DNA from: a virus
Length of the DNA: 28,247 nucleotides
Virus record (IMG/VR): IMGVR_UViG_3300027906_000104
Location: 1-28,247 of that record
Reading direction: 5' to 3' (one strand)
This document shows positions 3,678 to 7,352 of the stretch, in pieces (position 1 is the first letter of the stretch; every line of letters starts with the position of its first letter). A model generated the notes under the pieces. That model saw only the letters and a list, made by a program, of their open reading frames with translations. It did not search any database and had not been told where the DNA came from. Both the position numbers and the translations under genes were made by a program.

Positions 3678-4736
3678 ATGGCAACTACAGTAACATTAAC
3701 AAAACCATCTAATAACTGGCAGAGTTTTTGTGACTGGGTTACTAGTACCGACAACCGTATATATCTCGGTTGGTTCGGTGTCCTAATGATCCCTGCACTA
3801 TTAACAGCAACAACAGCATTCATACTTGCGTTTATTGCGGCTCCTCCAGTAGACATAGATGGCATACGCGAACCCGTCGCAGGCTCTCTACTCTATGGCA
3901 ACAACATCATCTCAGGGGCAGTCGTCCCATCATCTAACGCAATCGGTCTTCACTTCTACCCAATCTGGGAAGCTGCAACCATCGACGAATGGTTGTATAA
4001 CGGTGGACCATATCAACTCGTTGTGTTCCACTTTCTCATCGGTATCGCAGCATACATGGGACGCCAATGGGAACTTAGTTATAGACTAGGTATGAGACCT
4101 TGGATATGTGTAGCATATTCAGCTCCCGTCTCGGCAGCCTTTGCTGTATTCTTAGTCTATCCCTTTGGACAAGGAAGTTTCTCTGATGGTATGCCACTAG
4201 GTATATCAGGGACGTTCAACTTCATGTTTGTCTTTCAAGCAGAACATAATATATTAATGCATCCCTTCCATATGGCTGGGGTAATTGGTATGTTTGGTGG
4301 TGCTTTGTTTGCTGCTATGCATGGTTCATTAGTGACTTCTTCATTAATACGTGAGACTACTGAGAATGAGTCTCAGAACTATGGATATAAATTCGGTCAA
4401 GAGGAAGAGACGTATAACATTGTTGCGGCTCATGGCTACTTTGGAAGGCTTATCTTCCAATACGCTAGTTTTAATAATAGTCGTAGCCTTCATTTCTTCC
4501 TTGCTGTTTTCCCAGTCGTTTGCATATGGCTCACCTCTATGGGAATCAGTACTATGGCTTTTAATCTCAACGGTTTTAACTTCAATCAGTCAATCGTTGA
4601 TTCAAATGGTAGGGTTGTCCCTACTTGGGCAGACGTCTTGAACCGTGCTAACCTAGGAATGGAAGTGATGCACGAAAGGAATGCTCATAACTTCCCGCTC
4701 GATCTAGCGGCTAAAGAGATAACAAAATATGCATAA
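3678..4736 (+). CDS. psbA: Photosystem II D1 reaction-centre protein
   Basis: A 352-aa D1, colinear with cyanobacterial D1 (about 360 aa) to residue 344. Key residues are present: Tyr161 (TyrZ, in [11 protein letters not shown]), Asp170, Glu189, His190, His198 (MHPFH), His215, Ser264 (ASFNN), His272, and the manganese-cluster tail His332, Glu333, His337, Asp342, Ala344 (HNFPLDLA). Residue 130 is Gln, the form found in low-light D1 types. Only eight residues (AKEITKYA) follow the CtpA cleavage point after Ala344; about 16 is usual. The product would enter host thylakoids and replace photodamaged D1, keeping energy flowing during infection. GC is near 50% in 3841-4080 and near 39% in 4321-4500 by hand count, hinting at a recombinant history. 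The frame is intact. Confidence 0.98.
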
Positions 4737-4741
4737 AGTCA

Positions 4742-5239
4742 ATGACTTTTACACCACCCTATTGGAATCATAAAAGAACTATATTCCCACGGGCTGAAAT
4801 AGATCGTGTTATATCAGATATAAAATCTAATCCTATTGAATATAATAATATATCAAGTTATCCTGCAAATCGTCTAAGACCTGAAGCTAGATGGCTTGAT
4901 AGATATAGCAAAATCATAGGTGAATTTATGTCTGATATGGGATTATTTAAAAGAAATTCATATACATTTAGTTATTGGGCTCAACTTTATTTGAACAATC
5001 ATGATCATAAAATCCATAACCATTTAGGAGATGGAGCTACTATCAGCTTTGTTCATTTTATCAGACCTAGCCCAGAACCTCTTTTTAGATTTTCAAATTT
5101 TAATGGTGAATATCATGTACCACAGAAACAAACAGCTGGAGAGATTCTATGCTATCCAGCATGGTTGTGGCATGAAGTACTACCTAATGAATCTAATATA
5201 GAAAGATTTATTGTTGCTGGAAATGTATCAATAGATTAA
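4742..5239 (+). CDS. Putative 2OG-Fe(II) oxygenase-like protein
   Basis: A 165-aa protein with the layout of small phage 2-oxoglutarate/Fe(II) dioxygenases: a helical N-terminus, then FSYWAQLYLNNHDHKIHNHLGD (visible as YWAQLYLNNHD and HNHLGD; His92 and His94 likely hold one iron-site edge), a beta-strand segment TISFVHFIRP, and the distal motif GEILCYPAWLWHEVLP with His144, followed by Arg155 in ERFIVAGNVSI, which would contact 2-oxoglutarate. Such enzymes hydroxylate proteins or small molecules in the cytoplasm; the substrate cannot be told. It starts five bases after psbA and shares its accessory island. Codon use is more AT-rich than psbA. The classic H-x-D pair is not clear (H-x-H instead), so catalytic activity is uncertain. 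Confidence 0.65.
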   Translation: MTFTPPYWNHKRTIFPRAEIDRVISDIKSNPIEYNNISSYPANRLRPEARWLDRYSKIIGEFMSDMGLFKRNSYTFSYWAQLYLNNHDHKIHNHLGDGATISFVHFIRPSPEPLFRFSNFNGEYHVPQKQTAGEILCYPAWLWHEVLPNESNIERFIVAGNVSID

Positions 5240-5245
5240 CATCAC

Positions 5246-5310
5246 GTCCGTTCATCCTTTCACAAGGACGCATGAAACCACAGCATGGAACGGGGTTGTG
5301 GTACTTGGAG
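5246..5310 (+). promoter_or_regulatory. Glutamine-II riboswitch (Downstream-peptide RNA motif)
   Basis: The 137-nt gap holds the conserved core of this cyanobacterial/cyanophage glutamine aptamer. P1 is formed by CCGTTC (5248-5253) with GAACGG (5288-5293); P2 by TCCTT (5255-5259) with AAGGA (5264-5268) around loop TCAC; a pseudoknot by ACCACA (5277-5282) with TGTGGT (5297-5302). The characteristic unpaired words CGTTCATCC, GGACGCATGAAA and GCATGGAACG are all present. The 3' pseudoknot strand ends two bases before the Shine-Dalgarno TTGGAG (5305-5310) of a 13-codon ORF. From the known family, glutamine stabilises the pseudoknot and should occlude that ribosome site, lowering translation when nitrogen is plentiful. 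The direction of control is inferred, not shown. Confidence 0.88.
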
Positions 5311-5317
5311 ATTACTA

Positions 5318-5359
5318 ATGGTAACACTTAAGTATCGTGGTGTAACTTACACAAAATAA
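5318..5359 (+). CDS. 13-residue YRG micro-peptide, PirA/DUF4278-like, riboswitch-controlled
   Basis: The frame reads MVTLKYRGVTYTK and stops with TAA. A strong ribosome site (GGAG at 5307-5310, seven-base spacing) sits right behind the glutamine riboswitch. The pattern M-x-L-x-YRG-x-x-Y is the N-terminal signature of DUF4278 proteins, the family of the cyanobacterial PII-interacting arginine-synthesis regulator PirA, and is what is usually encoded downstream of glutamine-II riboswitches. Known members are longer, so this is a miniature containing only the signature. By family, it may act on host PII and nitrogen/arginine flow; that is inference. It could alternatively be a leader peptide that couples translation to the secreted protein gene 17 nt downstream. 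A shortened remnant is also possible, although aptamer and ribosome site look intact. Confidence 0.72.
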   Translation: MVTLKYRGVTYTK

Positions 5360-5376
5360 CATTTAATTAATTTAAC

Positions 5377-5736
5377 ATGAAAAAAATTGCACTAGCCCTA
5401 GCTACAATTACATTTGCTTCGACTCCTGCAATGGCTGGCGTCTATGTAAATGCCGAGTCAAATGCATCTTATACAGGTAATGACTTTACCTCTAGAACAA
5501 CTGATCTTCATCTAGGCTATGAAGGTAATGTAGGACAGCTTGGATACTATGTCCAAGGTGGTCCAGCCTTTGCAGCTGCAGATGGAGCTGATGGTACAAC
5601 TGATTTCTCAGGTAAGCTCGGAGGTTCCGTAGCAGCATCAGAGAAGTTAGATGTATATGGAGAGATCTCATTCCTTACAGATGAGACTGCTGATACAGCA
5701 TACGGTACTAAGATAGGTGCTAAGTTTAAGTTCTAA
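5377..5736 (+). CDS. Secreted small beta-barrel-like outer-membrane protein
   Basis: A 119-aa protein with a clear Sec signal peptide, MKKIALALATITFASTPAMA, and predicted cleavage after Ala20 (AMA|G). The mature part alternates polar and hydrophobic residues in strands (VYVNAESNASYTG, DLHLGYEGNVG, LGYYVQGG, KLDVYGEISFL) and ends KIGAKFKF, with a terminal aromatic residue as recognised by the outer-membrane assembly machinery. About six strands fit this length, so it is either a very small barrel or part of an oligomeric one. It would be exported by the infected host. It follows the riboswitch-controlled ORF by 17 nt and may share its control. Function unknown; possibilities are altered uptake, exclusion of other phages, or lysis help. 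Confidence 0.7.
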   Translation: MKKIALALATITFASTPAMAGVYVNAESNASYTGNDFTSRTTDLHLGYEGNVGQLGYYVQGGPAFAAADGADGTTDFSGKLGGSVAASEKLDVYGEISFLTDETADTAYGTKIGAKFKF

Positions 5737-5894
5737 TGGCACATCAAAACAATGCTATGAGAGCAGGTGTAACGTCGTTCTCACCTGAACCTGAAGAAAA
5801 GGTAGATACTAATCCTAGTGACTACCAACCCCCAGGTGTTGATGAGGATGATGATATGCCTCAATCACTAGAAGAAGCTCTTCTCGGTGAGTAA
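5736..5894 (+). CDS. Acidic 52-aa protein with a capsid-like N-terminus
   Basis: Starts one base inside the preceding stop (TAATGG). The N-terminus MAHQNNAMRAG closely resembles that of the major capsid protein encoded 459 nt downstream (MAHQNSALAAS), while the rest is acidic and unstructured (SPEPEEKVDTN, GVDEDDDMPQSLEEALLGE). No membrane segment or catalytic motif. Sharing the first residues with the capsid protein may reflect a shared translation-start context, a partial duplication, or a common assembly contact. The acidic tail resembles small capsid-associated or scaffold-like helpers. Function is not known. Confidence 0.6.
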   Translation: MAHQNNAMRAGVTSFSPEPEEKVDTNPSDYQPPGVDEDDDMPQSLEEALLGE

Positions 5895-6030
5895 AATTAA
5901 TGAACTATGGATAGTGGTCTTCGGACTGCTATCCTTCATTCTATTTGTAGAATGGTCTCATGTAATACATCATGAGAAGGCGGCACCTCATTGTGCTTCC
6001 AGCGAGATTAGTTTAGCGGTAAAACTGTAG
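5887..6030 (+). CDS. Possible GTG-started single-span membrane peptide
   Basis: A 47-aa frame starting with GTG that overlaps the end of the previous gene (GGTGAGTAA) and runs 29 nt into the tRNA gene. It reads MSKINELW followed by a hydrophobic span IVVFGLLSFILFVEW (residues about 9-23), then HVIHHEKAAPHCASSE. A well-formed transmembrane span with a short N-terminus, and the coupling to an upstream stop, argue for a real gene. The weak ribosome site and the overlap with tRNA-Gly argue against it. Its last eight or nine residues are encoded by tRNA sequence, so the natural C-terminus may be a by-product. Confidence 0.4.
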   Translation: MSKINELWIVVFGLLSFILFVEWSHVIHHEKAAPHCASSEISLAVKL

Positions 6031-6072
6031 CCTTCCAAGCTATTGTCATCGGTTCGATTCCGATATCTCGCT
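6002..6072 (+). tRNA. tRNA-Gly (anticodon UCC)
   Basis: A full cloverleaf can be folded by eye: acceptor GCGAGAT/ATCTCGC, D arm GTTT-AGCGGTA-AAAC, anticodon stem GTAGC/GCTAT with loop CTTCCAA (anticodon TCC), four-base variable loop, T arm ATCGG-TTCGATT-CCGAT, and discriminator T as usual for tRNA-Gly. Length 71 nt, with no encoded CCA. It decodes GGA and GGG. It is the only tRNA in the window, placed just ahead of the capsid gene in the most highly expressed part of the genome; the late proteins, above all the glycine-rich adhesin at 22589-23758, use many GGA codons. Confidence 0.95.
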
Positions 6073-6083
6073 TTGGCTTTAGC

Positions 6084-6162
6084 CCTGTACGCAGGATACC
6101 TTTAGCCGTCTAGACGGTGGGAGAGACCACAACAAAATGATCAAAAAAAAATTACACGTGTA
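6084..6162 (+). promoter_or_regulatory. Structured leader/possible phage late promoter region of the capsid gene
   Basis: Between tRNA-Gly and the capsid start lie several compact symmetrical elements: hairpin CCTG-TACG-CAGG (6084-6095), the perfect palindrome CCGTCTAGACGG (6106-6117), hairpin GTGG-GAGAGA-CCAC (6117-6130), and palindrome TACACGTGTA (6153-6162). The stretch GGGAGAGACCACAAC (6119-6133) is nearly the same as the initially transcribed sequence of the T7 class III promoter phi10 (GGGAGACCACAAC), and lies in the same place, before the major capsid gene. No recognisable 17-bp T7 promoter precedes it, so it may be an RNA stability/processing leader or a diverged promoter. Confidence 0.5.
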
Positions 6163-6194
6163 GAAAGTAAACAAATACAAATTTTTAATAGAAA

Positions 6195-7352
6195 ATGGCT
6201 CATCAGAATAGTGCCTTGGCTGCATCACTCACCGCGCCAGGTGCTAATAACGGCGACCTCACCACTAATGTAGCAGGTGAAGGTAAACGTCGGGCTCTGT
6301 ACCTCAAGCTTTTTTCAGGAGAAATGTTCAAAGGATTCCAACGCAATACAATTGCAAGGGATCTAGTTACTAAGCGTACCCTCAAGAACGGCAAGTCTTT
6401 GCAGTTCATTTATACGGGTCGTACCACAGCAGAATTCCATACCCCTGGAAATTCTATACTGGGTAACGGTGACAGTGCACCTCCTGTAGCTGAGAAGACG
6501 ATCACTTGTGACGATCTATTGATCTCCAGTGCATTCGTATATGAATTAGACGAGACACTTGCGCATTATGATTTGCGTGGGGAAATATCTAAGAAGATTG
6601 GATATGCTCTTGCAGAAAATTATGATAGAAAAATCTTCCGTGCAATATCTAAGGCAGCACGTAAAGCTTCACCTGTTACGAAGGCTAACTTCGTAGAACC
6701 AGGTGGTACACAGATCCGTGTAGGTACTAACGCCCAAGCATCCGATGCTTATGCATCAGCTAGTTTAATCTCTGCATTCTATGATGCTGCAGCTGTATTA
6801 GACGAAAAGGGAGTAAGTACAGAAGGACGTGTAGGTGTCTTAAACCCAAGACAATACTATGAACTTATCCAAGCGGTAGGTACTAATGGTCTTGTCAACC
6901 GTGACGAGCAGGGTACATCCTTGCAGTCAGGTAACGGCATCATCGAGATTGCTGGTATCAAAATTTATAAATCAATGAACATTCCGTTCTTTGGTAAGTT
7001 TGGTACTTCTCTTGGTGGAACTGCTGGTGCTACTATTCCTGGCACACCTGATCCTGGTAATACTGGATCATTTGTAGGTGATGCTATGGCAGATGAGCAT
7101 AACGTGACCGTTAATGATTATGGTCAAGCTGCTAAATTCAACAACTCATGTGGGCTCATCTTCCAGAAGGAAGCCGCAGGGGTCGTAGAAGCCATTGGAC
7201 CTCAAGTCCAAGTAACATCCGGGGACGTATCCGTGATTTATCAGGGTGACGTGATTCTAGGACGTTTGGCAATGGGAGCTGACTATCTTAATCCAGCTGC
7301 TGCTGTTGAACTGTACGCTGGTACAGCAACTGCGCCTGCTGCATTCGGGTAA
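6195..7352 (+). CDS. Major capsid protein, gp10-like
   Basis: At 385 aa it is somewhat longer than T7 gp10A (345 aa). It has the HK97-fold layout of T7-type capsid proteins: an N-arm with LYLKLFSGEMFKGFQRNT (residues about 37-54), an E-loop region around SLQFIYTGRTTAEFHTPG, the segment CDDLLISSAFVYELDETLAHYD, a spine-helix region (AENYDRKIFRAISKAARK), and a C-terminal P-domain containing VGVLNPRQYYELIQ and VIYQGDVILGRLAMGADYL. Hundreds of copies form the icosahedral shell. The gene sits between its own structured leader and an intrinsic terminator, which gives it a separable, high-level transcript as in T7. No slippage site producing a longer minor form is evident at its end. Confidence 0.96.
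   Translation: MAHQNSALAASLTAPGANNGDLTTNVAGEGKRRALYLKLFSGEMFKGFQRNTIARDLVTKRTLKNGKSLQFIYTGRTTAEFHTPGNSILGNGDSAPPVAEKTITCDDLLISSAFVYELDETLAHYDLRGEISKKIGYALAENYDRKIFRAISKAARKASPVTKANFVEPGGTQIRVGTNAQASDAYASASLISAFYDAAAVLDEKGVSTEGRVGVLNPRQYYELIQAVGTNGLVNRDEQGTSLQSGNGIIEIAGIKIYKSMNIPFFGKFGTSLGGTAGATIPGTPDPGNTGSFVGDAMADEHNVTVNDYGQAAKFNNSCGLIFQKEAAGVVEAIGPQVQVTSGDVSVIYQGDVILGRLAMGADYLNPAAAVELYAGTATAPAAFG

Follow-up and report, generated by a model that had tools for sequence, protein, structure and literature searches.

Which gene does an RNA of a glutamine-sensing class in a virus of marine cyanobacteria control, and by what means? The question is raised by a short intergenic element in the virus record IMGVR_UViG_3300027906_000104, which was analysed over its full 28,247 nucleotides (the window). 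Hosts of such viruses are the ocean's most abundant photosynthetic bacteria. T7-like cyanophages, the model phage P-SSP7 included, have been studied for two decades, and the element is without annotation in their records.

Glutamine riboswitches of type 2 activate expression (PMC6316151, PMC6698751). For a member from Prochlorococcus a glutamine-dependent rise of downstream expression is known, and in the host picocyanobacteria a riboswitch of the same class controls DUF4278 proteins (PMC6316151). The evidence below, taken as a whole, is best explained if the phage element is an ON switch acting on the translation of a 13-residue peptide with a DUF4278 core, a reading that we consider likely.

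Aptamer

When the whole window was compared with all Rfam models (cmscan), two RNAs scored above threshold: a tRNA-Gly and, on the plus strand, Glutamine-II (RF01704; 56.4 bits, gathering score 33, E = 2.5e-11). The type-1 glutamine model RF01739 gave 19 bits at the aptamer, under its cut-off of 35. A sequence-only reading of this DNA had proposed a glutamine-II riboswitch in a T7-like cyanophage and named a covariance-model search as the check; with a score so far over the gathering threshold its family call was right. The conserved words on which it relied are all present (CGTTCATCC at 5249–5257, GGACGCATGAAA at 5266–5277 and GCATGGAACG at 5283–5292), and the P1, P2 and pseudoknot parts could all be mapped on the crystal structure PDB 6QN3 (PMC6698751), from which the helices in Table 1 were assigned by homology. 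Its placing of the ribosome site two bases past the pseudoknot has to be corrected: GGAG is separated by 4 nt from P2 and by about 14 nt from the pseudoknot strand.

Table 1. Features at and around the riboswitch (window coordinates; SD, Shine-Dalgarno)
Feature	Position	Strand	Basis
psbA	3678–4736		
2OG-Fe(II) oxygenase-like gene (PF13759; PHROG 81), between psbA and riboswitch	4742–5239		
P0 5' strand (proposed), pairs with micro-ORF RGV codons 5336–5343	5239–5246	+	RNAalifold, duplex energies; covariation moderate
Glutamine-II riboswitch aptamer (RF01704)	5246–5302	+	cmscan; P1/P2 covariation in 34 distinct relatives
Pseudoknot strand PK5' (CGTTC), pairs with 5288–5292, holds ligand-contact C1 (5249)	5249–5253	+	homology to 6QN3 numbering
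P1 hairpin, 5255–5259/5264–5268, loop TCAC	5255–5268	+	cmscan alignment; both-side changes among relatives
Linking-strand CGC (C17, G18, C19 equivalents), ligand pocket	5269–5271	+	mapping to 6QN3
P2 stem, 5277–5284/5295–5302, around pseudoknot 3' strand GAACG 5288–5292	5277–5302	+	cmscan alignment, 6QN3 homology, covariation
Extra pairs	C5271:G5293 (long-range, adds to pseudoknot); A5285:G5294	+	6QN3 homology
P3 5' strand GGUACUUGG (proposed), takes in first SD half, pairs with 5328–5336	5300–5308	+	RNAalifold, covariation, thermodynamics
SD core GGAG, 7 nt before ATG 5318	5307–5310	+	sequence; relatives' spacing
Micro-ORF, unannotated, 13 codons, peptide MVTLKYRGVTYTK, DUF4278 core (YRG)	5318–5359	+	YRG linkage, synonymous variation, DUF4278 match of longer homologues
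Cyanophage outer-membrane-like beta barrel gene (PF24653), next after micro-ORF	5377–5736	+	Pfam 145.6 bits
tRNA-Gly (TCC), just upstream of capsid-leader element	6002–6072 (cmscan); also given as 6001–6073		cmscan
Capsid-leader element	6073–6134	+	
Capsid gene	6195–7352		

All nucleotides that contact ligand or metal in 6QN3 are kept in the window: C1, G2, G18 and C19 correspond to C5249, G5250, G5270 and C5271; A37, A38, C39, G40 and G41 to A5289, A5290, C5291, G5292 and G5293; and the A33:G42 pair to A5285:G5294. These conserved contacts are good support for the view that the RNA would allow the phage to sense glutamine.

Standard pairs are formed in 93.8% of the P1, P2 and pseudoknot cells across 34 distinct relatives, which are viral with few exceptions. 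Cells changed on both sides and still paired number 79, as against 21 after shuffling (0/500) and at most 19 in slid registers; it should be noted that significance obtained by shuffling is inflated by the relatedness of the sequences. The pattern with which the relatives were collected fixed the pseudoknot words and the linking-strand CGC and left P2, and P1 beyond CC/GG, free. The PK5' strand is invariant in the resulting alignment, but most of it was set by the pattern, and the invariance of the pseudoknot is therefore uninformative; that of the linking-strand CGC is for the same reason partly by construction. P1 and P2 covary strongly among the phage relatives, and the phage aptamer is thus under selection.

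Genomic setting

The gene order of the window is that of marine T7-like cyanophages: portal, scaffold, a possible hli (its Pfam match is weak), psbA, 2OG-Fe(II) oxygenase-like gene, aptamer, micro-ORF, outer-membrane-like gene, tRNA-Gly, capsid and tail. A location between psbA and the capsid genes, as originally described, is correct in that these two flank the module, but neither is its immediate neighbour; the oxygenase-like and outer-membrane-like genes are. At the corresponding place in P-SSP7 the oxygenase-like gene is without annotation. The upstream gene stops 7 nt before the aptamer, which may therefore be part of a polycistronic transcript. In a promoter scan of 4600–6300, matches were no more frequent than in shuffled sequence, and there were none on the plus strand.

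The micro-ORF and its peptide

The 13-codon ORF was absent from the sequence-only reading, which thus overlooked the regulated gene and instead placed the switch within a photosynthesis/metabolism island. Tuning of such an island is not supported, for the constant ORF beside the switch is the DUF4278-core micro-gene, and the gene that follows varies. Control of psbA was likewise considered and rejected: psbA lies upstream of the aptamer and is therefore not its downstream gene, and it comes after the module in 1 of 113 loci (L063).

A short ORF with a YRG core follows 196 of 197 related aptamers, compared with 1.8% of random control positions. To guard against circularity, 80 loci were also picked by similarity of the next gene rather than by the aptamer. 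Wherever at least 220 nt of upstream DNA were available the aptamer was present (68/68), and 4 further loci, whose upstream stretch is shorter, have it too. Each of the 72 aptamers found in this way is followed by an ORF that begins with ATG and has a YRG core, in nearly all cases with an SD. In most relatives the SD-to-start spacing is 6–7 nt, and across relatives the peptide has 12–38 residues; that of P-SSP7 is MKVTFVYRGVAYTRVIG. The sole exception among the 197 is L110 (minus strand, 835), in which the aptamer is kept, the micro-ORF is deleted and the SD region is joined to the capsid-leader element described below.

Where the codons for the conserved Y, R, G and Y differ, they do so nearly always in the third position; beyond them, T and K/R codons that lie outside the RNA stems considered vary synonymously too. 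Judged by these codon patterns, the micro-ORF is under selection at the amino-acid level. The two tyrosine codons of YRG..Y have their own preferences: the first is TAT in 69 and the second TAC in 64 of 72 distinct cores, the latter in contrast to the TAT-rich usage of the window (TAT:TAC 222:36).

The 13-residue peptide of the window is below the 20-residue minimum of the Pfam scan, and longer phage homologues were compared with the DUF4278 profile (PF14105; cut-off 25.3 bits). One of 38 residues scored 26.8 bits and one of 35 residues 24.5 bits, just under the cut-off; of two further long peptides, one reached 17.3 bits and one gave no match. From the longer phage matches, together with the comparison with host DUF4278 proteins, it follows that the phage peptide would represent a single-repeat DUF4278 core.

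Could the switch instead serve mainly the structural gene that follows, capsid or outer-membrane-like, by translational coupling, with the micro-ORF merely a leader peptide? The module does lie directly before the capsid gene, or before an outer-membrane-like gene preceding it, in nearly all marine T7-like cyanophages, and the next ATG in the window, which has no clear SD of its own, comes just 17 nt after the micro-ORF stop. Yet the gene after the module is not constant between phages (113 loci: capsid 77, outer-membrane-like 25, others 11), which makes the micro-ORF the constant partner of the aptamer, and in phages of the P-SSP7 type a gap of about 180 nt with a separate structured element precedes the capsid gene. 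Moreover, what is conserved is the amino-acid sequence of the peptide and not an open frame alone, this sequence matches DUF4278, and host versions of the switch serve DUF4278 proteins themselves. We therefore regard coupling as an unlikely main function and keep the micro-ORF as the probable target, with co-regulation of the outer-membrane-like gene of the window as a possible addition.

A second structured element before the capsid gene

Directly upstream of the capsid gene there is a second conserved structured element, TTTGGCTTTAGCCCTGTACGCAGGATACCTTTAGCCGTCTAGACGGTGGGAGAGACCAC, found also in L205 (4166–4225), L207, L202 and L002. It consists of a covarying hairpin, often with a UACG loop, in which one pair is changed on both sides in 16 of 28 sequences, and of invariant CCGTCTAGACGG and GGGANAGACCAC. 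The element occurs in 102 of 253 loci examined and, by BLAST, in many marine T7-like cyanophages; it has no match in Rfam. Its GGGANAGACCACAA is similar to the start of the T7 phi10 transcript, and by this analogy the element may be a phage promoter/leader or a processing element.

Candidate expression platform

The authors of the crystal structure take the ribosome site to be occluded by an alternative structure that glutamine probably displaces (PMC6698751). When leader and ORF of the phage module are folded together, the SD pairs with codons of the ORF itself. Run on 21 aligned phage leaders without any structure as input, RNAalifold predicts two helices, P0 and P3, the latter joining GGUA[C/U][U/A] (end of P2 plus leader, within the leader stretch GGUA..GGAG) to the xYR codons. 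P3 is paired in 84% of cells and shows 31 both-side changes, as against 11 after shuffling (0/500). One pair of alignment columns (81/121; C5304:G5332 in the window) is seen as C-G, U-A, G-C and A-U.

For P0 the covariation is modest and in some relatives absent. Its duplexes in 126 loci average −10.5 kcal/mol when matched, −8.6 when mismatched and −6.4 when shuffled; in 13 host loci, 2 or 3 of them seemingly phage-derived, the corresponding values are −6.9, −6.2 and −4.9 kcal/mol, and no comparable P0 is found in these host leaders.

The GGU at 5300–5302 is contested between the base of P2 and P3. In the thermodynamic model its pairing gives the P3 hairpin a median extra stability of about 6.8 kcal/mol, and because full-length P3 and P2 both need it, a P2 stabilised by ligand should shorten P3. 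With the GGU locked in P2, the predicted SD accessibility goes up by more than 0.1 in 29 relatives out of 88, and no relative shows a decrease. In the window itself no gain is predicted: there, as in many relatives, a short P3 still covers the SD, and for this reason the switching of P3 remains a model. Simple sequestration was tried and rejected, since forcing the pseudoknot bases to be unpaired hardly alters SD accessibility; the switch is therefore not readable from the simple fold alone.

This failure of simple folding to release the SD, together with the weakness of P0, would also be expected if the P0 and P3 pairings merely reflected clade structure of codons and leaders and the switch used another alternative structure. 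We give this explanation real weight, while holding it to be the less probable one, because P3 carries double changes in separate backgrounds (C-G is replaced by G-C in L133 when compared with its relative L122, and likewise in L026 when compared with L020), because registers slid against each other yield at most 8 double changes as compared with the 31 of P3, and because RNAalifold finds P3 unprompted. Covariation thus strongly suggests that P3 is an anti-ribosome-site hairpin with the ORF's xYR codons as pairing arm. We propose, as a new model, that the phage expression platform lies inside the ORF; competition between P3 and P2 would fit a translational ON switch, and P3 is a concrete phage candidate for the occluding structure that the crystallographers inferred.

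Distribution among phages and hosts

In IMG/VR an exact-pattern scan found the aptamer in at least 120 viral contigs, and BLAST found it in about 18 cultured marine T7-like cyanophages. Aptamer and micro-ORF were both found in P-SSP7, P-SSP2, P-SSP3, P-SSP6, P-SSP10, P-GSP1, NATL1A-7, NATL2A-133, 9515-10a and P-SCSP-R27W. The aptamer was found in S-RIP1, S-RIP2, S-TIP28, S-TIP37, S-CBP1, S-CBP4, KBS-P-1A and S-SBP1, the match in S-CBP4 being to the peptide only, and some of this second group have a YRG peptide of 33–38 residues. In the cultured phages inspected, P-SSP7 included, the module lies between psbA and the major capsid gene, and the RNA is not annotated there. A glutamine-II switch is thus not unusual among such phages. 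A search of open-licence papers gave no earlier account of glutamine-II in T7-like cyanophages, nor of the micro-ORF or of a platform embedded in the ORF; Rfam match lists may already include such phages.

In the hosts, Prochlorococcus and Synechococcus, the same aptamer class precedes DUF4278 proteins of 33–58 residues with two or three YRG-like repeats. Two contigs, filed as a Prochlorococcus single-cell genome (L202) and an Actinomycetota MAG (L204), contain the phage module together with the outer-membrane-like gene and for that reason look like cyanophage DNA within cellular assemblies. The crystallised 'Prochlorococcus RS01' aptamer was considered as phage-derived because of its phage-type linker; this was rejected, there being no exact match in viral contigs and no phage match by BLAST.

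Capture of the module from a host is plausible because host genomes have the same riboswitch class, there with longer DUF4278 proteins, and RNA and micro-ORF might then be a mere passenger that has lost its glutamine response in the phage. Against this stand the compensatory changes in P1, P2 and P3 and the synonymous codon changes, which speak for continuing selection in phages, and the near-universal presence of the module in a lineage of tight 45-kb genomes, which is hardly that of a relic. A passenger is thus highly improbable, and we continue with the functional switch.

Proposed function

In the absence of glutamine P3, aided by P0, would take the GGU from P2 and hide the SD. At high glutamine the pseudoknot and P2 would be stabilised, P3 would be shortened or weakened, and the peptide would be made. 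It might then mimic, or compete with, the small DUF4278 proteins of host nitrogen control, whereby host nitrogen assimilation would be adjusted in the late, capsid-building phase of infection. Judged solely by its resemblance to the DUF4278 family, the peptide probably engages host nitrogen control. In its widest form the proposal is tentative, and we would not yet bet on it: a micro-gene gated by glutamine would be widespread in marine T7-like cyanophages, its codons would double as peptide and anti-ribosome-site arm, and its product would rewire host nitrogen assimilation as glutamine rises in the course of infection. If the peptide does act on host nitrogen control, this would be a direct, metabolite-gated intervention of phages in marine nitrogen assimilation. 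The module would then also offer DUF4278 in a naturally occurring single-repeat form, together with a concrete model of a glutamine-II expression platform that is open to mutation.

Comparison with known systems

The closest relative of the phage module is picocyanobacterial Glutamine-II (Downstream-peptide, type 2, RF01704), with which it shares fold, pseudoknot, ligand pocket and the position upstream of a short DUF4278 ORF; both are likely translational ON switches. They differ in the ORF, which in phages has a single YRG repeat (13 residues here, 12–38 in phages) and in hosts two or three repeats in 33–58 residues; in the linker, CGCAUGA in the phage and CGCAGUUC in the host; and in the leader, the candidate expression platform of the phage lying inside the ORF whereas the host leader is different.

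Another phage-encoded glutamine-sensing class has been reported, the glnA-type Glutamine-I (type 1) riboswitches of T4-like cyanophages (PMC9964418, PMC9602691) and of OM43/SAR11 phages (PMC9004378). Glutamine-I (RF01739) is, however, another RNA class, in other phages and beside other genes.

DUF4278 (PF14105) is the N-terminal part of the glutamine synthetase (GS)-inactivating factor IF17 and is also found in proteins of the PMM1846 type. These proteins and the phage peptide have in common the core repeat [LF].YRG[VI].Y and probably control by the same riboswitch, the phage keeping one repeat. Finally, Yfr6 of Prochlorococcus, a 244-nt RNA with a 33-residue ORF (PMC1242208, PMC2864571), has as its 5' part a Downstream-peptide element before a small ORF and is in this respect built like the phage module, from which it differs in its host locus, its longer peptide and its antisense partner Yfr14.
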